Below, in pieces: positions 1 through 29,500 of a stretch of DNA of 64,000 nucleotides; the stretch's first letter is position 1; the number at the start of each line of letters is the position of its first letter. This DNA is from Apostichopus japonicus. Taxonomy: Eukaryota; Echinodermata; Holothuroidea; Aspidochirotida; Stichopodidae. The position numbers were made by a program, and so were the translations under genes. The notes under the pieces are model-generated. The model searched no databases. It was not told where the DNA came from and worked only from the letters and a program-made list of their open reading frames with translations. The stretch is taken from the NCBI RefSeq assembly GCF_037975245.1, contig NC_092571.1, positions 28,327,064 through 28,391,063 on the forward strand, read 5' to 3'.

Positions 1-868
1 GGCGGTGGGGTCTGCCTCTCTATTAAAAACGACGTTGTATTCAACTGCCGTAACGATATCTCTCCCTTGACCGACGATATCGAAAGTATCTTTGCTGAAA
101 TTGATGTTGGGTGTTGTGTATCGCCCTCCAAATGGTGACGTCACTAGCTCCATTGATCAACTTCATGATATTTTAAAGTGATATTCTGCCGCTGGAGATC
201 ATTGTTTTCTAATGGGTGAAGTTAATATTGATCTTTGTAAACCAGCCGCTAACTATTTCCTTAGTAACCTCACTGCCCGTGGCTTTCACCCAACTATTAG
301 CACACCCACTAAAATCACTACTAACAGTTCTTCTCCTATTGATAATATACTTACAAACTTAAATAATAACAATGCTGGTGCTAAGGTGAATATAGCTGGT
401 GTTTTCACAATTTATATCAGTGATCATTTTCCTATGATTTTACACTCTACTCTGAAATCATGTTCTATTCCTGGTAATGCTCCATTTTACTCTCGTAATT
501 ATCTGAACATAATATCCAGCATTTTGGCCTCCTGTATAACCAGCACTGATTGGAGCAAATGTTTCTGGCAAATGACACAAACATTGCATTTAATACCTTT
601 AATGATATTTTTAGCCAGTCTTATTCAGACTGCTTCCCACTGTATAACGTACGGCAAAGGCAAAAGAAAAAGCAAACTTGGATTACAAATGGACTCCTTG
701 TCTCAATTAAAAGTAAAAATAAACTGTACATTATGCGCATAGCAAAGAGAAAACATTTTACATACATATTCAACAGCTCAAAACATGACAACAAAAAGAC
801 ATGGGAAAACATAAACAGTCTATTTTAAACAATGGTAACAAAGTTTTCAATTACCCTAACATCTTCAT
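1..868 (+). mobile_element. Decayed non-LTR retrotransposon (LINE), endonuclease and linker region
   Basis: Three-frame reading gives pieces of an endonuclease/exonuclease/phosphatase (EEP) domain in the right order. They are a GGGVCLSIKNDV-like start (from base 1), GVVYRPPNGD near 108-140 in another frame, then from 212 EVNIDL, STPTKIT, IDNILTNL and ISDHFP, the usual C-terminal EEP motifs of CR1/jockey/RTE-like LINEs. Bases about 630-830 encode a Lys-rich stretch (WITNGLL, KSKNKLY, KKTWENIN) typical of the linker between endonuclease and reverse transcriptase. At least two frameshifts separate the pieces, so the copy is dead. It runs off the left edge of the window and stops at the (GAT)n tract. 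The clade is not certain from this fragment. Confidence 0.75.
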
Positions 869-3591: not shown

Positions 3592-4991
3592 TTACATCAT
3601 CTGACTCGGAACGAGATATAATTGTCTGTCATAATTATACTTAGAGTCCTCAGAAATATCAGCATACTTTGCGGCTTCTTCCTCTGTATTTTGATTCAAT
3701 GTTATAGAGTGAGCATACACATGAGGGTCGTCTACATTAATTTGATGCTGATTTACATTTATACTTTCTGGTCGTATGGTAGTTGTATAAGTAGTGTTCG
3801 ACCTCGGGAATTGGCCAATCGCATGAGATGATGATGACGATGATGATGATGGTGCTAATCTACATACGCAACGACGGTAATTCAAGCGAAGTAATAATGT
3901 TAGTAGTACAATGATTATACAGGAGATAGCCAATATCATTAAATGCAACAGATCGATATGTTGTGATCTTACGAAATTAACACTGGCATGTTTGGAAATG
4001 TTCCTTCCACCATATGAACCACTGCATTGAAAAGTTATTGGTCCATCGGTACTTGATCCATAGTCAAATATCTTGAGCTGTAATGAATCGTTGATCTTAG
4101 TAATGTTAAACTGCCAATCTTCCAGTGGAATAGCAGTCCAGTCTAGTACAACTCCACTCACATTACTGGTACAGGTTAGTATAATATTTTCTCTCTTATT
4201 TGTGTTGACTGTGTTGCGAGATGGATTAATCGATACTGAGAATGTCGGTAAAAGCATCATCAATGGTCCGAAGGAACAAGATTTGCTGTAGCTCTGATAC
4301 GGAGCAGGTAACTGTTGGATTACTCTGCAGATCAAGCTGCTATTATGAAAAGAAGAATCTGCAGGTAGGTAGAGAATGATCGTGATTTTGAAAGCTGCTG
4401 CTCAGTGTTGATTAAATCTAGTGTGCTATTAACTTGTTGCTGCCTACCGTCCGTCTCAACGTAGAGATATATATTAACAGCTGGATTTCCTTCTTCTGTT
4501 GTACAGTTGAATTCGAACGGCACTTGTAATTGATCACTGAAGACTATAGGAAGTTCGTAGTTGGATATACATCGAGGATACTCTTCTGGTGGACTGTACA
4601 TAACCTCTACGTGTAAATGTTTAGTCGTTGGATGTCTACAAATGAAGTTGTCTTCATTGTTTCGTGATACATTGATAATAGTTAAAATACAAGCTAAGTC
4701 AGTTCTGGTAAAGATAATATTATCTGGTAAGGATGGGATCAACGATCCATTCCTAACGTATTCTTTGTCCTCTCCAACTATCTGACATTCATCAGTAGTA
4801 TGTTGCTGACAGATGAGCTCAATCGTATCCCCCTCAAGAACTTCACGAGGATAAATCTTCCTACTATAATCAGTAAAAGTAAATGATCTTCTGATTCCAC
4901 TGGAGCCTTCAACCACGCATAGAACGGCCTCAAACGCAATCAAAAATATCACAGATTTTGCAAGCAAACCGTCTGCTGTATTTATCTTCAT
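3592..4991 (-). CDS. Ig-like single-pass transmembrane receptor, frame broken once
   Basis: Two open frames overlap by four bases. The upstream one (4991 to 4332, 219 residues) begins with a signal peptide (MKINTADGLL..., hydrophobic to about residue 27) followed by two Ig-like folds, with Cys61 in IELICQQ, FICRHP, and FEFNCTTEEGNP. The downstream one (4335 to 3592, 247 residues) carries a third, classical Ig domain (ILTC55, W66, C104), a membrane span at about 127-149, a basic stop-transfer, a poly-Ser run and a cytoplasmic tail with Tyr224, Tyr233, Tyr235 and Tyr240. Comparison with the copy at 7243-8235 shows the frames should be joined: this copy has two extra bases near 4365 (CCTGCAGAT versus CCCAGAT). 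It could be a recent null allele, an assembly error or an unrecognised tiny intron. No intron separates the Ig domains, which is unusual. The tail tyrosines resemble SH2-docking sites, but no canonical ITIM or ITAM is present. Ligand unknown. Confidence 0.65.
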
Positions 4992-6030
4992 ATTCGGTAC
5001 GTCTTTAACAAAAAAAGACTGAATTATGTTCGATGATGTTTAAAATATTGTTACCTTAAAAAGTTCTGAAGTGACATGATAAATGACCAATATCAGGTGA
5101 CCACTGGCATATTGTTAAAGAAAATTAACAATCTGAAATGAGTAGTAAGTGCATGTCCACCTAAAGATATACTATTGGTTTGAACGTTGTCGTAGAAATT
5201 GAACTTACAAACATGAAAATATTTATGCAAATTGTTTAAATATGTTTTTAAAGATTGCCAACAAAGTGGTACTGAGCTGAGCAGTGTACATTTGAATTCA
5301 AATTCACAATAGATGCAAAATAAGACCTGATTGTGATATTTACTAAATCCCATAGTCAACCTTTCACACCATTTGATGCTATCTATATTAAAGAAGAGTT
5401 TTGAATAGTGTTGTGCAGAAAGGTGTAAATTGCCAACGGTGTATTGAGAGCGCAAAAGAAATCATACCTGTTTTTTGTTATGGTAAATGCGGTAGTTCAA
5501 ACTTGGTTGTTTTCGTAGATTAAACTAGAACTATAGTAAAGTTATCCGAACAACCGCCTCAATGAAAGTGTGACGATGACTCTTTAACAAGTGATATTGT
5601 TCTACACAACCTGTGAACACTTTCTATTCATCAAGACAAACAATAGTACGGGTTATTACTCATTTCATATTTGGTCAATAACATTAACAGTGTTCAATTA
5701 TTTATTAACGCTTTCGTTCTTATCTAAGTTTTAACAGTTACTTCCTTTCCCATGATGACATAACCGATTGTCATGCAGTATATTAGAGCTAGCATGGATA
5801 TATTACGCAGGTTTAAAACATCCCTGGGAGATGTTTATACTCACGAGATTACCAAAATCCATCATAAAGAACATGTTGAGGAATTGAATTGAAGTGATAA
5901 AATGAACCCTTTCGCAACAATAACATTTGCAGTGCTAGGCCTTGTTCTTTTCATGAAGGACCACTATGTAGGCGGAGCTTACTTGAGAACTTCTCACCTT
6001 CACTTCAGATTTGGCCTTTGAATCAGGAGG
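4992..6030. other. Upstream region of the first Ig-like gene; no gene seen
   Basis: AT-rich flank. A minus-strand open frame of 120 codons (5093-5455) has no signal peptide, domain or homologous copy upstream of the other Ig paralogs, so I do not call it. The region may hold the promoter of the Ig-like gene, but no clear TATA box or initiator stands out. Confidence 0.5.
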
Positions 6031-6554: not shown

Positions 6555-7240
6555 TTTCTAACCGCAGGCGCGAAGCCAAGGGAGGGGGGGGGGGGTAAAT
6601 GGTGGAGACTGCCCCTTCCCCCTCGAGCATATTTTTTGGGTATTTTTTATGATATCGAAGTTTTATAGTAGCCATTATAAGAGGTTTTAATATTTGTACA
6701 CCAATAAATTAACTGTGTCTGAATTTTCGAAAATTCCTTGACCAACATTCTTCATCATACTTCCCTCGACTCGTGCAATTTTGACCGGTCTGTTAAGGGT
6801 TGAAGGGGGTTTTTCTATATTGGTTGTCCATAGATGAAATTTTGTGCAACATTATGGGTATGTTTTGAAGTGAATTTATTATTCAGATTCTTAACAAATA
6901 ATGGGCTTAAAACCGTGAAAAGTGGGGCTGACGGGTATTGTGGGGCATTACGTAGAATTACCTACAAAAGCAATGATCCACAGGAGATGTGTGACTGGTG
7001 ATAATCTTGAAAAAGGTTATGAATGAACAAAAAACTATTTGGGAAAAACTTGGTTCTCAGGCAAAAGTGTACCCCGAGAAGTGTCATTTCCGGTGATCTG
7101 GGGGGCTATCAAAACCAGAAATTTTCTTGTACGCTGCGCGCCAACCAATGGTGGCGCTCCGCTTTGTTAGTAATTCGCCTGCATCCAAGCAAATGCCCCC
7201 CCCCCCCCAATATTTGAACAAATCGCCGCCCCCTGGCCTG
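6555..7240. mobile_element. Probable non-autonomous transposon remnant carrying the GCGCCAACC module
   Basis: The Ig-like homology of the neighbouring pseudogene stops at about 7241, and the sequence beyond it contains a module (about 7078-7175: TTTCCGG, ATTTTCTTGTACGCT, GCGCCAACC, TGGCGCTCCGCTT) shared with four other places in the window, two of them inside well-bounded hAT-type elements. G-rich and C-rich blocks at both ends (6580-6595, 7197-7210) match the style of those elements. I could not find convincing terminal repeats or a target duplication, so the limits are approximate. Confidence 0.5.
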
Positions 7241-7242
7241 CT

Positions 7243-8235
7243 GGAAAATGTTATATCCTCCAAACGAACCGCTGAATTGAACAATTATTGATCCATCGAA
7301 ACTTGATCCATAATCGAACATTCTCAGTATTAGTGAATCATTCATCCTACTGATATTATACCGCCAATCTTCCAGTGGGACGTAAATCCATTCCAATACA
7401 ACTCCACTCACATTACTGGTACAGATAAGAGTAATATTTTCTCTTTTATTTTTGTTGGCTGTGTAGCGGGATGGATAAATCGATACCGAGAATGTCGGTA
7501 AAATCACCAATGGTCCGAAGGAACAAGATCTGTTATAGCTTCGATAGGGAGCAGGTAACTGTTAGGTAACACTACAGATAAAGGTAGCACCATTAAGGGA
7601 TAAATCTGGGTAGGTAGAAAATGATAGTGATTTTGAACGCTGCTGCTCAATCTCGATTAAATCTGTGCTATGTAGTTGCTGATGTTGTGCATCCCTTTCA
7701 ACGCAGAGGGATATATCAACCGGTGGATCTCCTTCTCCTGTTGTACAGTTAAACTGGAACGGCTCTTGCCATTGGCCAACAAATCGGGACACATGACTTT
7801 CGTAGTTAGACGTACACCGAGGGTACTCTTGAGATGGGCTGTAAATAATCTTTAAGACTAAATATTGCAAATTTGGCCTCGTGCAGACGAAAAAGTCCTC
7901 ATTGACTTGCGTTACATCGAAAATTGTTAAAATAGAAGCTGATTCATTTCTGTTAAAGATAACATTTTGTGGTATAGCAGGGCCAAATGAACCACTCCTA
8001 ACATAAGTGACTTTGTCTCCCTCTATCAGACAATCACCAGTAACATGTTAATGACATATGAGATCAATCGTGTCCCCCTCAAGAACTTCAAATATATTCT
8101 CCTTTGCTGTACATTATGTAAATTAGAATGATTTTCTGATTCCACTGGTGCTTTTAACTATGCAAAGACTGACAACTAAGGCAAAGAAAAGACAGCGTTT
8201 GAAGGGAATCGTCGAACGATGGTTATCTTCATCAT
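7243..8235 (-). pseudogene. Second Ig-like receptor copy, disabled
   Basis: Reads as a clear paralog of the gene at 3592-4991 in the same orientation. It shows signal-peptide remnants near 8140-8230, Ig domain 1 remnants, then PRCTSNYE, FNCTTGEGDPP, SFSTYPDL and FICSVT, and a third Ig domain with CTSNVSGVVLEW and FDYGSS. Damage includes an in-frame stop after FICSVT (about 7563), a stop and indels in the first Ig domain (near 8046 and 8085-8110), and loss of everything after the third Ig domain at about 7243, where repeat sequence takes over. The region homologous to the frameshift of copy 1 is in frame here, which identifies the lesion in that copy. No introns interrupt the homology. Confidence 0.8.
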
Positions 8236-13180: not shown

Positions 13181-16100
13181 TCAACTCTTAAAATATTTTA
13201 GGACTTTTGGAAGTAATGGCAGAACATCTCCTACTACTTCACCTTGAATGGAAAAGGCTTTGCCTATTTTACAAAATGTAGCCAGAGATTCACAATTATT
13301 ATTTGCAAGGTCATACACCTGACTAGAATTAAACAGCATATCATAAGCCCTTGCCACAACAACATCAGCAGGATCACTTTTCGGGTATTGAACACGTCTC
13401 ACACCACCCTTAGGGAACGAAACATCTTCACATTTTATACGAGAAGGAGGACCTGTCCAGTGGATCACTTTGATGTTTCCTTTTTCCTTTTCAGATATGT
13501 GTAAAAATATCGCATGATGATCATAGATCTTAGCACGACGGAAAACAATGTGGTCTCCATGTTGTAACTTATTGACATCTTTAACATCTTCATGCTTCAG
13601 CTCAGACAAATCCAGTTCACGCGGAATCTTGTACGAGAATTTTTTATTATCCCAGACTAGAGAAGCTTCTTTTGCAGATTCTGTTGTTGGAAACCATTCA
13701 GCTGCACAGTTGTTGCATAGAAGACTAACAATCGATTCATCACTGTGAGATTTAAGTTCTTTATAAGAGTTGTATCCACATACGCATGCAGGAAGTATGT
13801 CTTCTGATGGAATGAAGAAAGAAAAAACAGTTAATATTGACACAAAAATGGGAATCTAAATTTAGTATTAAAATCATACTCAACTGACATGGATGAAAAT
13901 AGCTTAAATAGAGAATCAATAAAAAACATTATCATCGATACATGTAAATCAAAATTTTGACCAAAACATCTCCTATAGAATGAGCCATATCCCCCCCCCC
14001 CCACCCCATCCCCACAACAACCTCTGACTGTTATTTGGTGGGATATGGTTCAGTCTGGATTTCTGTATCCAGCCAGGAAAGAATTGGACCTCTACTATAG
14101 TTGTATCATTCCTCTACCCCTACCCTTTTTTATATCAACCACGCAAAGTATATATTAGCAAGACCTAGATTTTATACTTATATAGAACTGATTTAAAGTC
14201 TAAAGGTGCCTCAGAATAAACCATTTAAGTTTACTTTTCTGGGGGAGGACTCCCATACCCCCTGTAGTCAGTTTCAATGACCAGAGTGCAGTCCCTCTCC
14301 TTTAACAAGATTAAGCCCCCTACCAAAATCAGTTGGGGGAACTTATAATTCCCCCCCCCCCCCCCATCACCTCTCATAATACCTTTTAAATTCTGTGCAT
14401 GCTACTTTTGAGTTGGACTGAAATATTTAAACAACATCACTTAAATAAGCAAGGATTTTCTGTATGAGAGTGCAATTCAAACTCAGACTAGAGTGCCTGT
14501 ATGTAAATATGGTGGTACTCGCTTGACTGGATCAGCTGCTATCAATTTATCTGCTTGACTGTATAAGGTTCTTCCAAAGTTACTAATGGGTTAGTACAGA
14601 ACATGCATGTCAGTGGATGTAGTCTAAAAGAAGATGGGACAGGTTTCATCATTTACTGCTTTTTTAAAGTTTTGCTCAGAATTTAAGAAGGGATTTGTAT
14701 TTGGCGAAAAAAAAGAGTCATCTAAGATATCATAACATCATTAGTTTGTGTTAACATGTCCTGCAGAATGAGGCTTTCAGTAAAATACAACGCATACCTT
14801 TACTTGATGCTCTGGCTTTAATGGATGATGGTAGACCTTCTGAGTGTAGAATCAAGTTTTTAACTCGGATCATTCCACGATTTTGCAATGCAAAGAGTAA
14901 TGCATTGATGGTCGAATCACTGTTGTCTTTGCCTTTATTAATCTTATCAATCAAATCAACCGCACTGTTTTGGGATTTTTGAATCTCTTGAACGTAACGA
15001 GCTTGCAGTCCAAGAAATATTGCAATCTCGTAGCAGTCTTGAACAGTCAGTTCTTCAGAAAGAAGATCCTTAACGTCATGCAAGGTCAAGGTAGTCTCCA
15101 CCGGACCATCTGAAAATGGAAAAAAAAAAAACATTTTTTTATTGAGTGACAACCAGGTGGTGAATTGCAAAATTTAGAAACATTACTTGTTCTCCTAGTT
15201 TTAATTCCTTGTCGATAAGACAAAAAAAAACAGAATGCAATGATGCATAGTGGTTTCGATGATGTAACATTCAGCTATTTTCTGCATGAATCTGATGCAA
15301 TGTATAGTGAGGGTGTACAACATACTTGATATTAGTCATACAGTGAAAAGCAGTGTGATGTGACAAACAATAAATTCACAATGACACAGGCTGTCCTGAA
15401 ATGACCATTGACCTCAACAACAAGCTTCTTGTACTTAATGTGATAGATACATCAACATACTAAATATGACATCAGTCCTTGTTGAAATATTGTGTAAGTC
15501 ATGGTTCCACAATCTGACCACTGGTGAACTCAAACGACCATTGACCTCCGCCCACAACATTAAGGCTTCTTGTACTCAATGTTCACGGTACAATTACATA
15601 CCAAATATGCGATCTGTCCAAGCTCCCCTTACCATATTATGTTTAGGAAGATGTGTTAGTGTGGAGAGACAGGTAAGAGGGGAGTGAAGTAAATGTTTGG
15701 CATTTGCTGACTTCAAATCACCTTTGACCTCCACCAAAAGCTAGTCTCCTTAAATTTAATATGGTACATCTACAAACCAAATATGAGATCTGTCCTTTCT
15801 TGCAATATCATGTTTACAAGGTTGTCACGATTTGACCTGTTGTCCCCAAATGACCTTTGATCTACACCAAAATTATTAGGCTTCCTGTACTCAATGTGGT
15901 TCATCTACACACTAAATATGAATTAGTCCAACCTTCCCTTCTTGAGATATCGTGTTTACAAGGTTTTCAAAATTTGACCTCCAGATGGTGACCCCAAATG
16001 ACCTTTGACCGCCACCAAAAACAATAGGCTTGTTGTACTCAATGGGTACGTCTAAACACTTAATATGAGGTCTGCCCATGCTTCCCTTCTTGAGATATCG

Positions 16101-18734
16101 GGTTTACAATGTTTTCACAATTTGACCACAAATGACCTTTGACCTCCACAGCAAACAATAGGGTTCCTGTACTCAGTGCGGCAAGCTTCCCTTCTTGAGC
16201 TATCATGTTAACAAGGTTTCCAAAATTTGACCCCTAGTGACCCTAAATGTTTTTTTGTCCTCCACAGAAAACAATAGGCTTCCTGTAATCAATGTGTTAC
16301 CTCTAGACACTACATATGAGGTTTGCCCAAGCTTCCTTTCTTGAGATATCGTGTTAAGTAGATTTTCACAATTTGACCCCTGGTGACCCCAAAGGACCTT
16401 TGACCTCCACAGAAAACAATAGGCTTCTTGCACTTAATGTGGTACATCTACACACCAAACATGAAGTTGGTCCAACTTTCCTTTCTTGAGATAACGTGTT
16501 TACAAACTGGGCGTCAAAACGCACACAAACACACACACACTTACTCCATAATGAATGCAAAGGAATACGAAATTCATCAAAACCAATAATTAAGAAAAAT
16601 TAGATTTATTAAATATATTTTTTCCCAACAATCTATTCAGGAGACAAGACTAGTGCAGCCATGCTGTGGTAGCTTACACAAAGCTGTTTAATCAAGGATC
16701 ACTTTACAAGCACGCACTTAGATAAATAATGTCTATAAACACAGGAAAGCGGTTACGATACGAAGCAGTGAAATGTTTGGAGCAGTAGACTTTGATATCA
16801 GACTGGAAAGTAGACTTCGATCTCTGTTGATTTCAAATAACCTTTGAAACCCAAAGAAAATGGTAGAAAATGAGAAGCCATATAGACAGTATCAAAATTA
16901 AATCATTAGCTTGCTTTAGCTATTTAAAGTGTTTATCAGCAAAGGCATCACATGTACACACACACACTAACACCAGCATTACATTGATTCGTCTTGCCTT
17001 ATTCAAGGATTAAAAAATCACCTGGAATATCTTTGCTCGGTTGATTAAACAATTTCGTTGCTTTATGTGATAATCTGTTCAATTTACAGAATTTAAGTGC
17101 CTCACAGAGCTCATCTATCCCCTTTTCTTCACCAATCGTGCCACTATCTTCCAACACTGACAGCAACTCCAGTCCCTTGTTGTTGGCTTGTTTCACCTGC
17201 TCCTTCTTCTTAGGTGGGAGGCTGAAGTACATTGCCATTTGACCTACTGCATCACCATCAAACTCATCGGCTAGATCAGTCTTAAAGCTTCCAAACCATC
17301 CTCCTTAAGCAAAAAGGCAAAGAGAAATGTACACATTGCCAATTAGGCTTCTTCGTGAGTTCCTGCTTGCAGGAGGATCTAATATACGTACATACTGTAC
17401 ATACACACATACATACATTGTACGGTAGTAAAAATGTATATAAGTGATAGTTCATACAAGGAATCGGTTAAGAGGACTGATTGGCAAAGGAAAAAGAAAG
17501 GTCCTTTAAAAAGAAAGGCTGGGGGGGGGGGTCATTTGGGGAGGGAACCTTTCTTCCAGATTTATTACACACCCAAGCAATATTGCATACAGTACTGTAC
17601 AATGGCACCACTTAAAATTGTATTACCTAAATGTAAATCAAAATGATAACAATGATGGCATAAATTTATATCTAGAAAATTAAGTACTTTTACACAAATA
17701 CAAATTTCTAACAACTCCCCATAAACCATTCCAATTCTATAGCCTTTCTCCCCAGAATAGGCATCCACCAACTCGTGGATACCCTTCTCCCCCTCCCCCC
17801 CCCCCCCCCCGCCGCTCCCTTTAAACAGAAAATGATATTTATAATTCTGACTACAGGTGTGGTACAAGATAGACATGAATTTAGAACACTATGCTATTGC
17901 GAAGAGATACTTAAAACACTTTACACATGACTGGAAATATTTAAAATTTACTCCTAAACTTACAGAAGAATAAATACAGTACAGTAGCTTCATTAGACTC
18001 AGGAGACCCCATCAAACCCTACCCCAAGGAAGAGAGCAGGGGGAAGATCCAGAAAAGAAGCAAAACAACAAATTGAAGAAAATAAGCTACTGTAGAATAC
18101 AATGGAATAGTGATGTAACTTTAAAATTTTGACTTCCCAGTTCAACATTTTGTTAGTTGCAGTTAAGATCTGAATTAATTGAGATACTGTATGATTAACT
18201 ACAATAGTTTCAGCAAATGTATAAATTTTAACTATGAGAATTTAATTCTATTCAACTAAAACTGGTTGCTTTCTAGGCACTTTCATTTATGACTCCCTTG
18301 AAAAATGTCTCCAATTACCTAAGTTGAAATTTGTAATGAATTCAAAGCAAAATATTGCCATCTTTTTTGCCAAGCTGATGAAGTTGTGATCATGTTATCT
18401 TTGCATGGCTGTAGCCTTTAAGATGTACAGAATGTAGATATACTACACAATTAGTGCAATTAAGCTGTTGCTTAACATAGCAACCATCTTTTAGCTGTTA
18501 TTTTAAATATTGGACAGCTCTACCTGTACATATGTTATGATCATGATGTGGATAAGGAATTTCAAGTATATACTCTACTGTTCTTCACAAATTGTTCTAA
18601 CCCTGAAAAATTGAATGACACTGTACAGTAAGTCACAGCACTGATACTGAGATATATATATGAGTAGTTGATAGCACTAACTGTACCCCCAAAACTGTAT
18701 ATGATATATTAGTACACATACCTTTAGAAGCCAT
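13181..18734 (-). CDS. Death-fold / LRAT-domain (NlpC/P60-type) protein, 4 exons, 409 aa
   Basis: Coding exons on the minus strand: 18734-18722, 17303-17022, 15109-14798, 13803-13181. All junctions are GT-AG with phase 1, total 1230 nt. The ATG at 18734 has a good context (A at -3, G at +4); an in-frame ATG at 18764 would add ten residues. Residues about 5-95 form a helical death-fold-like domain (GWFGSFKTDLADEF, then KFCKLNRLSHKATKLF), possibly DED-like. Residues about 104-190 form a second, death-domain-like unit (LTLHDVKDLLSEEL, CYEIAIFLGL, INALLFALQNRG). Cys209, 211, 232 and 235 could bind zinc. Residues about 284-390 are an LRAT/NlpC-P60-type thiol domain: HGDHIVFRR, YDHHAIFLHI with His298, VIHWTG with His317, and NNCESLATFCKIGKA with Cys373, the positions of the His-His-Cys set of LRAT and PLAAT/HRASLS enzymes. 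The C-terminal about 20 residues are hydrophobic (VVGDVLPLLPKVLKYF). Likely a lipid acyltransferase/phospholipase-type or thiol-hydrolase effector coupled to death-fold assembly. The families are recognised by motif; the role is inference. Confidence 0.85.
15390..16510. repeat. Degenerate tandem repeat, about 110-180 bp period, with TGACCTTTGACCT core
   Basis: Seven or eight diverged units lie in intron 2 of the LRAT-domain gene. Each runs roughly: AAATGACCTTTGACCTCCAC, AATAGGCTTCTTGTACTCAA, TGTGGTACATCTACACAC, a GATATCGTGTTTACAAGG block and an ATTTTGACC block. Cores occur at 15402, 15535, 15718, 15851, 15999, 16133 and 16394. Chance open frames on either strand of the array are repeat artefacts. 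The unit looks like a dispersed repeat family rather than a local invention. Confidence 0.85.
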
Positions 18735-19064: not shown

Positions 19065-19860
19065 TTTGTTTGTTTTATCACGTTAACATTGTGAAAGGAA
19101 GTCTTCTAAAAAGACTATATTGGTTTAATTAACAAAGTACTGTAGAAGACTCCCTGAAAAAGGAAAAGAAAAAGAAAATGAAATAAAAAATATTATAGTT
19201 CACAAAAAATCAATAGTAGTATGATATTTGAATTAATAAGATGCAATGATTTCTTTCATTAAATATTTTCGATCTTTTTGATAATTTATTTTTGTTCATT
19301 TCTGTTATAGAATTCCAAGTTCTTATAGCACGATTTCTTAAGCTTAACATTCCTATTGAAGTATTCGTTGTGTAATAATGCGCATTATCGGCGTATCTTT
19401 TATTGTGATAATGTAAATCCCTATTACTAATAAGGTAATTCTGAAATGCATTATAGGCATGCAGTAGTCCATTCCACGCCTTATAAGTGAAGGTGGCAAT
19501 ATTTACACGAATTATGTCATTAACTTTCAATAAATTAAGATTCTTAAATATATGGCTGGTGTGATCACGAGGAACAGCACGTGATATTTGTCGGATTGCC
19601 TTCTTTTGTAGTATAATAAGTGAATTGCGATTAGTTTTATACGTGCCAGACCAAATAATAGAACAATAAGAAATATGTGGTACTAGCTACCAGGGTTTGA
19701 TAAAGTGTCTTTAAAATGTGTTGTGGCAAGAAGTGTTTTAATTTGGATAGAATCCCTGCATTTTTAGCAACTTTGTTGCAGACTGTTGAAATGTGAGCAC
19801 ACCAGGAAAGGTTGTGATCAATCTGGACCCCTAAGAACTTAGTAGTGTTAATCATGGTAT
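19065..19860 (-). mobile_element. LINE fragment, 3' half of reverse-transcriptase ORF and 3' tail
   Basis: On the minus strand the reading starts with TKFLGVQIDHNLSW (19849-19806) and LKHFLPQHILKTLYQTL, standard C-terminal reverse-transcriptase motifs of CR1/L2/jockey-like LINEs. A frameshift near 19660 follows, then IIWSGTYKTNRNSL, ILQKKAIRQI and LLKVNDIIRVNIATF, and a final region to about 19210. It ends with a conserved 3' UTR (AGAAGACTTCCTTTCAC) and a (CAAAT)n-like tail at 19065-19075. The same 3' end without coding sequence recurs at 45485-45592. The copy is 5'-truncated and frameshifted. Confidence 0.85.
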
Positions 19861-26500: not shown

Positions 26501-29500
26501 TCCCCATGGGTACTTCTTCTCTGCAACATTGTAATGATATGCAAGAAAACAAATAGCACTTGATATAAGTACATTTCTATGAGACCTGTAGCATATTCAG
26601 TGAGACCAAAACAGAAGCAAACATAACAATCAAATAAAAGTCCTTTCAGCTTTCTTTCAGGTACAAGAGATATAATTACCATGGCAACACCTAGTACTAT
26701 TCAAAGCAAAAATAAAGAAGAAAGTATTGGCTTTATTTAGTTTCATAAATGTTGGCTCAGTACTAGAAGAATATCCACTGATAATATTTTGGTAACAAAA
26801 TTACAAAACCATTCTCTTAATAGACTGTGAATCTCTGAAGTTTTGTGTTTGCATCGATTGTCATCTATCTAGCACACTGAGCTGCAGAAAGGGGGGTGGA
26901 GGGGAGGGAATGGAGGGATGGAAGGATGACCTCAAGGAGGTACCATTCACTTATGAGAGTTCCTCTCACAGCAAATTCCCATTCATTTTTTTTGTAAACA
27001 AATTTACAAAACCATCCTCCTAATAGACTGTCAATCTCTGTTTTTTGTGTGTTCATTGATTGTCATTTTTCTAGCACACTGGGCTGCAGAAGGAGTGTAG
27101 AGGGTTGAAGATATGGCCTCTAGGAGGTACCACTCACTTATGAGAGTTCCTCTCACAGCAAATTCCCATTCATCATCAGTAGGCAGTCTGAGTCCTTTCC
27201 ATTTACAGTATGCCTCGGCATCTATATGACTAATATGGACAGCTGGCCAATTGAGCCTGTCATCAATGCTGGATCCTTCACCCTCTGGCTGTGAGATAAG
27301 ATCATTATAATCAAAACAATAACTACAAAAAAATAGGTTGAAATTTTGGCAAAACTGTCTTTCAACAAGTGGGAAAGAATATGGAGATATATATGGAGAT
27401 ATATGGCATTCTACACATCAGTTTGAACTATGCACTTAGATGAAAAAAAAAAAATTGTTGCTTGCAGAAGTATGTACCATACTAAATTGAATTTTGTTGG
27501 TGAACCTTCAAATTGCATTAGAAAGAAAATAATATTTGCAACAGGTAAGTTTATAATCACATTTCCAGAGATTGAGAATTAGAAGTAAAATTATTTACAA
27601 TAAATGATCGATACTTTAATATGAAACCACATTTACATGTTTCATAGTTGGTATAGGATTAGCATTCTATCCCACTGTTAAGACTTTACACTTACAGAAG
27701 AAAGTGTAGGCAGTTATTGTATTGCACTCATAAACTTGCTCATGCTTTGCATAAATAGAGAATATCGGCACAGTGGAAGTACAAGAAAGTTACCTCAATG
27801 TATTATTGATGGTTCTATGGAAAAGAGGAATTAAGCTGACCAGGTGTTTTGTAATTCCACAAACAAATTACAATTGTATATTTGCATAATGATATCAAGT
27901 CTTGCCCTCTACTGTTTCAAATCGTGGGGAGTATTTTATATTTTTTTCAATACCATTTGAATCACACTTCATTCAGGCCGAATCCTACACTGAGGATGAC
28001 AATTCTAAATTTTAACATAACGTTATTACTTTCTGTTTGGGCAAGACCAAGTGCATTAGAATCAATTGCTAGGTCAAAATTTCTCCTTAAATTCGAAGGC
28101 ATTTTTTACAGGGACAGGAATACTGGAACAAACCACTCCAGACATAATATAACAGAAAATATCTGAGAGGTGTGAGTTGGAGCCTGTTGCAACAAAGTCA
28201 CATTATTAGCGTCTCTTTCCAATATTGCAGTTAGTTCAATCTGAAGCTTGTCTTGAAAATTATATCAATTATTTATGAGATGCTTCTTGTGTTAATCCAA
28301 AGATAATAAATGTCTCCAGTGTAATCCAACATTCTCCACCTCTCCCAAACCTCCCTCTCACACCCCTCCTATTGCCTACCATATAACAAACCATACACCT
28401 AACCCTCCCTCAACCAAAAATAACCACCTACAGGGGTTCTTATTAAACATGTAAAAAGCCAGCATACCTGGTCCCATCTTGCTTCTGGAACAGGCATCCA
28501 CCATTCTGCATTCTGTGGTATTAAACATTTAAACAAAATCTAAAGTCAGTCACATATTCATGGAAGAAAAACTGTTCTGAGAAAGGGTCATGCATCCTTT
28601 ACGATATTTACCAACTGAAATCCTGAAAAATTATTCTAGACAAATTATTCAAAAGGAAATCATTTGATACAGGGAAACGTTCACCGACAGGAGTTGAGCA
28701 TCAATACTCTCTTCTTTCCTTTAGTGTCACATTTGTTCACCATATCCTTTCAAGCTTGCACTTTTAAGCGAAAGAAATGTTTTCAACTTACGGGTAATTT
28801 ATCAGTTATTTGGGATTTTATATTATCTGGAACATCAGACTCAAAGACAAAGCTCCATTCATACTCCTCTGCAGTTGACACATAGTCTTCTGCGACAGCA
28901 AATTTCCTGACAAATTGAAAGAAAGTCCGAGAGGGGGGGGGGGCAGAAAAAAGAGAAAACAGTTGATGAGAAAGTCAGTGTTTGTTTACCACAATAATCA
29001 TGTTTATATAGAACTAGAATGTACACCCATTCCGAGAAAACAACATGGTGTCAGCAGTGGGATCAGCTGGTAGACCAACTAAGTGAAATTTTGCATCACA
29101 TCGCGTTGACGATCACATGATTGTTTATAGTTCTTTTGAAGTAAACGAAAGTGGAGAACATGTAACAGCACAGGTACACTACTGTATGTGTACCATAAAG
29201 GTAAACAAAAATGACAAAATATCGTGGAAATACAGTTTCTTCTAAACCTTTAAGCAATAATTGTGGTGGAATGTCGTGTACCCTCCACCAACTCACCTAT
29301 AAGATTGTAAAGGGTCCCCCCCCTCCCCATTAAACAGTGTTTATGTATCAAGTGGTGTTGCATATTACTGTAATATACAGTAGATCTGGGTAGCAATTGT
29401 TTATGTACAAGTATGAGTACCACAGAGGTCATATTAACAAAAAATATACTGGCATATAGTACTGTAGCAGACAGCAAACTAATGCAAAGGCAAGTGGTCC

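Follow-up and report, generated by a model that had tools for sequence, protein, structure and literature searches.

Does the holothurian Apostichopus japonicus join death-fold signalling modules to a lipid enzyme in one protein, and what might such a protein do? The question was raised by a predicted gene on the minus strand of a 64,000-nucleotide stretch of contig NC_092571.1 (positions 28,327,064 to 28,391,063, assembly GCF_037975245.1), the whole of which is called the window here. An earlier note had read this gene as two death-fold modules followed by an LRAT/PLAAT-type thiol enzyme domain. The architecture observed in the window DNA was confirmed, and the interpretation put on it was partly supported. 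Relatives of the window gene, which sits in contig C11, were sought within the same genome (671.6 Mb in 35 contigs), by sequence comparison only. The strongest support for a death-fold/LRAT architecture comes from a sister gene, for which a four-exon model with GT/AG borders at all three introns (its first exon was picked by eye) yields 325 residues. The predicted sister protein matched the Pfam Death model (PF00531) with 42.2 bits against a cut-off of 22.6, over profile positions 17-80 of 86, and the LRAT model with 33.1 bits in the same frame; its Death domain matched RIPK1 (E 8.1e-8) and FADD (E 3.3e-4). This LRAT exon is thus preceded by a death module in two genes, and the modules differ between them.

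The predicted window protein has 409 residues and is encoded, as the earlier note had claimed, by four phase-consistent minus-strand exons, with GT and AG at the borders of all three introns. Other choices of splice sites gave 405-411 residues, and exon 1 is the least secure part of the model. The features of the gene are as follows.

Exon 1, 18734-18722, minus strand: 13 bases with an ATG start codon and an in-phase GT donor, coding for residues MASK plus one base.
Exon 2, 17303-17022, minus strand: 282 bases, phase 1-1, putative first death-fold-type module (about residues 5-98).
Exon 3, 15109-14798, minus strand: 312 bases, phase 1-1, about residues 99-202, putatively another death-fold-type module, divergent in sequence.
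Exon 4, 13803-13181, minus strand: residues 203-409, with a CxC...CxxC cluster, the LRAT domain and the stop codon (13183-13181).
Cys209, Cys211, Cys232 and Cys235, 13706-13786, minus strand: four cysteines that precede the LRAT domain, their coordinates obtained by counting along the exon frame.
His298, 13517-13519, minus strand: proposed general base of the triad.
His317, 13460-13462, minus strand: proposed third residue of the triad.
Cys373, 13292-13294, minus strand: proposed nucleophile, within NNNCESL.

The LRAT exon copy of the sister gene lies at C11:28259978-28260595, about 80 kb from the window gene, and is 79% identical to exon 4 at the protein level. Similarity between the two loci at the DNA level extends past exon 4 on one side and reaches intron 2 on the other, where it stops at a repeat array. 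Exon 3 of the sister has 63 bases in place of 312, the alignment placing losses of 201 and 48 bases that keep the frame, and a Pfam Death match of 44.7 bits was found about 3 kb upstream of its LRAT exon on the same strand. The array itself, at about 15380-16540 of the window, consists of diverged repeats in tandem and is common to both loci.

To look for further death-fold/LRAT pairs, 51 LRAT positions (40 matches listed and 11 more from another search) were compared with 50 Death, DED or NACHT positions, which had been picked by eye as lying on the same contigs from 340 such matches, the remainder being compared by eye. Among these positions, drawn from lists that are lower bounds, the sole pair closer than 10 kb was the sister gene, the next being 62 kb apart.

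Probable death-fold modules and NACHT genes

Exon 2 had matches at 65 places elsewhere in the genome at E <= 10, ten of them at E <= 0.001 (counts made by eye in 103 match rows). At two of the three exon-2-like loci fetched, an open reading frame (ORF) with a NACHT domain followed downstream on the same strand (44.7 bits at L042 and 32.7 bits at L040). The phase-1 acceptor of exon 2 was present in all nine GFG-type modules read, and three of the nine showed a simple-pattern phase-1 donor. When members of the exon-2 family were scanned with Pfam at E <= 1, DED was matched by five of eight and Death by four of eight, with a best E of 8.7e-5; a rescan of two members gave Death at E 0.1 in one and nothing in the other. 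Compared with the PDB at E <= 1, the family profile retrieved death folds in 8 of 11 matches (Fas, Pelle, FLIP and viral FLIP). Taken together, these results mark exon 2 as an N-terminal module of NLR type, very probably with a death fold, and its kinship with the N-terminal exons of NACHT genes fits a role in innate immunity.

Exon 3 retrieved from the genome, besides itself, three matches at E 3-5, namely an exon-2-type module (L044), an exon that adjoins a NACHT ORF of 53.5 bits and itself matches DED below threshold at 17.2 bits (L045), and a locus with a sub-threshold DED match of 16.3 bits (L046). When exon 3, L044 and L045 were all left out of the module profile, exon 3 scored 22.3 bits on it, a value reached by none of 5000 shuffles (best 10.5 bits). 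Among 1790 sequences comprising translated ORFs, their reversals and the query, it was found at E 1.2e-5, the best unrelated sequence scoring 7.3 bits; shuffles and translated-ORF decoys are easier controls than real helical proteins. Higher scores on three other profiles (36 bits on 'all' and 'noE2', 23.3 bits on 'nolr45') were not used as evidence, because the first two contain L045, which had been retrieved by exon 3, and the third contains L044. By blastp no similarity was detected between exons 2 and 3. Exon 3 thus appears, less strongly than exon 2, to be a divergent relative of the exon-2-type modules.

The claim of two death-fold modules has to be weighed against a series of results. 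No death-fold Pfam model reached its cut-off on the window protein, the best score being 15.3 bits for DED (cut-off 35.9) at residues 40-86, which was also sub-threshold in exon 2 alone. At the third exon-2-like locus (L041) no NACHT ORF was present within 7 kb. Five of the eight family members also matched DUF2095, the PDB matches of the family profile were each weak (best E 0.036), and exon 3 alone had no death-fold match in Pfam or in the PDB. The death-fold reading therefore rests on family evidence, which upholds the first of the two modules and, less strongly, the second. Matches to TPR_TRIP12_N, Penicillinase_R, a DUF and NlpC/P60 in Pfam were too weak for naming, and the same holds for the PDB entry 8rc5, matched by the whole protein and by exon 3.

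In the genome at least 106 NACHT matches (106 of 488 candidates scored), at least 150 Death matches (150 of 204 candidates scored) and 84 DED matches were found. Large clusters of NACHT with Death or DED matches were seen on contigs C12, C16, C7 and C22. The window locus was not among the NACHT matches listed (106 of 488 candidates scored), the 409-residue protein had no NACHT domain at E <= 10, and its Pfam scan showed no leucine-rich repeat. Genes combining Death domain or DED with NACHT (DD-NACHT and DED-NACHT) are described from amphioxus, sea urchin and Nematostella in the excerpts of PMC2575513. Exon 2 of the window gene is homologous to the N-terminal exon of the NACHT genes in the same genome and has the same phase-1 acceptor, but the window gene differs from such invertebrate receptors in carrying an enzyme domain in place of NACHT and leucine-rich repeats.

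The LRAT domain

Pfam LRAT (PF04970) matched residues 281-385 of the window protein with 35.2 bits (cut-off 24.3; E 1.8e-8), and exon 4 scanned alone scored 33.3 bits. The triad positions are occupied by His298, His317 and Cys373, so the set reported in the earlier note proved complete, with each residue at the position first named. By motif, we take the two histidines to be the equivalents of His23 and His35 of PLAAT3, the printed PDB alignment covering only the Cys half. A profile built from exon 4 and nine relatives from the same genome, the sister included, retrieved seven PDB sequences at E <= 0.01, all seven being PLAAT or LRAT proteins. A chance occurrence of the motif was ruled out by these matches together with the Pfam score above cut-off.

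At least 40 LRAT matches were found in the genome at E <= 0.001, a lower bound because the window's own LRAT exon was missing among the matches listed. In 22 other LRAT ORFs (26 distinct aligned sequences minus three reads of the window gene and one of the sister), the third triad position held Glu in 14, one of these rows being poorly aligned, and His in three. The CxC...CxxC cluster ahead of the domain is perhaps a metal site, and its second pair was found again in many LRAT relatives.

The short hydrophobic tail that the earlier note had described did not hold up as an anchor in the membrane. On the Kyte-Doolittle scale its most hydrophobic 19 residues (386-404) averaged 1.06, a value that ruled out the C-terminus as an anchor, and no C-terminal span of the kind typical of most PLAATs was present in the protein on this scale. 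This absence counts against the reading of the gene as a membrane-acting PLAAT-like effector, and its product is for the same reason better described as an LRAT-domain protein than as a typical PLAAT. Some LRAT ORFs elsewhere, on contigs C5 and C7 (L002, L003, L008, L004 and L028), are long and have strongly hydrophobic stretches with best 19-residue means of 1.8-2.7. In three of them (L002, L003 and L008) the middle is hydrophobic and rich in glycine; a second LRAT-like part seems to be present in L002 and its relatives, and L002 scored below threshold (16 bits against 27) on a pore-forming profile.

PLAAT/HRASLS and LRAT proteins (PF04970, an NlpC/P60-like papain fold) have the LRAT domain and the Cys-His-His set in common with the window protein, this catalytic set being described in excerpts of PMC10318531 and PMC4624172. 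As far as the available parts of PMC9338259 and PMC4624172 describe them, the N-terminus of human PLAATs is rich in proline, and all but HRASLS5/PLAAT5 carry a C-terminal membrane span. The window protein differs from them in the putative death-fold modules in front and in the missing span, and it reads NCESLA where PLAAT has NCEHFV. No paper on a death-fold/LRAT fusion was found among the best matches listed in the open-licence literature. Invertebrate DD- and DED-NACHT genes and PLAAT enzymes were both already known; their joining here would be a new combination of known parts, though databases of eukaryotic domain architectures may already list it.

Proposed function and its alternatives

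Our preferred reading, which we hold tentatively and with somewhat less than even confidence, is that of a soluble modular enzyme with two death-fold modules, the first of NACHT-receptor type, followed by an LRAT/PLAAT thiol acyl-enzyme, which sensors would recruit for a local lipid output. Sensors with matching death folds would bind and cluster the protein, clustering would place the LRAT domain on its substrate, and the enzyme would then remodel phospholipids locally or give rise to a lipid signal. The sister, which has another kind of death module, would connect the same enzyme to another upstream partner. Initiator caspases and RIPK1 are death-fold proteins with an enzyme output; like them, the window protein would combine a death fold and a catalytic domain in a single chain, and the Death domain of the sister matches RIPK1 itself. 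Unlike theirs, its catalytic part would be an LRAT acyl-enzyme instead of a caspase-fold protease or a kinase. The architecture read in the earlier note gained ground from the Death domain of the sister and from the NACHT homology of exon 2, whereas the missing span and the selection data below tell against the effector that it proposed. The sequence shows the architecture and the homologies; that oligomerisation would activate the protein as a lipid-modifying effector is inferred.

A broader proposal, which we consider somewhat unlikely, is that the pair represents a class of death-fold-gated lipid enzymes. In such a class, assemblies of NLR or death-receptor type in this animal would fire an LRAT enzyme as well as caspases and pore formers. 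Swapping death modules on a nearly constant LRAT exon would rewire the one lipid output to different sensors, and the fast change of that exon would reflect an arms race. Death folds drive proteases and kinases, and, if the proposal is true, their driving a natural LRAT lipid enzyme would be a new kind of output for invertebrate NLR networks, which this genome has on a large scale. With nearly the same enzyme under different death modules in two genes close to each other, module exchange could be tested directly.

The alternative that survives best, though we consider it unlikely, is a young duplicate pair that is drifting or decaying, in which case the fusion would be present in the DNA under little selection and there may be no working gene. 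Between the LRAT exons of the window gene and the sister, nonsynonymous divergence (dN) was 0.132 and synonymous divergence (dS) 0.128, a dN/dS of 1.03 over 205 codons, so no constraint on the enzyme is visible in this single selection test. Exon 4 had diverged by 12.1% and intron 3 by 13.1%. These figures tell against our preferred reading and, like the shrunken exon 3 of the sister, agree with decay. Several observations speak modestly for retention: both genes keep open frames, intact splice sites and the triad; both indels in exon 4 are of 3 bases, whereas the 12 in intron 3 are of mixed length (four being multiples of three); and when 74 random substitutions were simulated in the exon, only 7.2% of the copies stayed free of stops, with a mean of 2.5 stops. 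The open frame and the indel pattern are modest evidence for coding constraint on exon 4. The fast amino-acid change may be relaxed or diversifying, a single gene pair having been compared, and an arms race would fit it too.

A membrane-rupturing killer, in which death folds would concentrate the LRAT domain on the membrane of an organelle or around a pathogen and its phospholipase activity would break that membrane and kill the cell, is in our estimate distinctly unlikely. It draws on the complete His-His-Cys set and on the shortened PLAAT3 (18TM) described in excerpts of PMC9338259, which disabled mitochondria or peroxisomes after recruitment to them, in a phospholipase-dependent manner. The same excerpts report no mitochondrial deformation by PLAAT5, which has no predicted span, by span-less PLAAT4, or by PLAAT3 15TM and dTM, and in the part of PMC4624172 at hand HRASLS3 without its hydrophobic tail lost membrane binding and activity. 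The engineered PLAAT3 of PMC9338259, as excerpted, thus parallels the proposed window protein in that recruitment sets the effect of an LRAT domain, but it relied on artificial FKBP/FRB recruitment and needed at least 18 span residues, while the best hydrophobic stretch of the window protein averages 1.06 and is no span. That recruited constructs without a span were inert in those parts of PMC9338259 makes membrane destruction less likely, and it also counts against an effector of the kind we prefer, whose predicted product equally has none. With the span missing, we consider local lipid remodelling or signalling likelier than rupture, unless insertion into the membrane is provided by a partner.

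We regard as very improbable that the protein is a regulator and not an enzyme, its death folds restraining receptor assemblies as a decoy or brake and its LRAT domain being a structural remnant or binding module. Tandem death folds are reminiscent of FLIP-like regulators, and the exon-2 family profile gave weak matches (E 0.54 to 0.96) to FLIP and viral FLIP. The His-His-Cys set is, however, kept in both copies, though Glu stands at the third position in most of the other LRAT ORFs. A mis-joined model, with the LRAT exon in a transcript apart from exons 2 and 3, is the least probable alternative, for although the four exons were predicted from DNA alone, with only 13 bases in exon 1 and a repeat-rich intron 2 of about 1.9 kb, all three introns are in phase and the sister retains the splice sites of exons 3 and 4, again with an in-frame death module upstream.

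Other features of the window

Two similar sets of ORFs on the minus strand, at 3592-5039 and 7109-8047, look like duplicated immunoglobulin (Ig)-type surface proteins. Of the four scanned, one matched Ig_3 below threshold, with 19.6 of the 30 bits required, and the other three had no match. ORFs at 182-742 (plus strand) and 19210-19686 (minus strand) resembled by eye pieces of non-long-terminal-repeat retroelements and had no Pfam match at E <= 0.01. An exon of a sulfatase-modifying-factor-like protein (FGE-sulfatase, 59.3 bits) was found at 27034-27417 on the minus strand.

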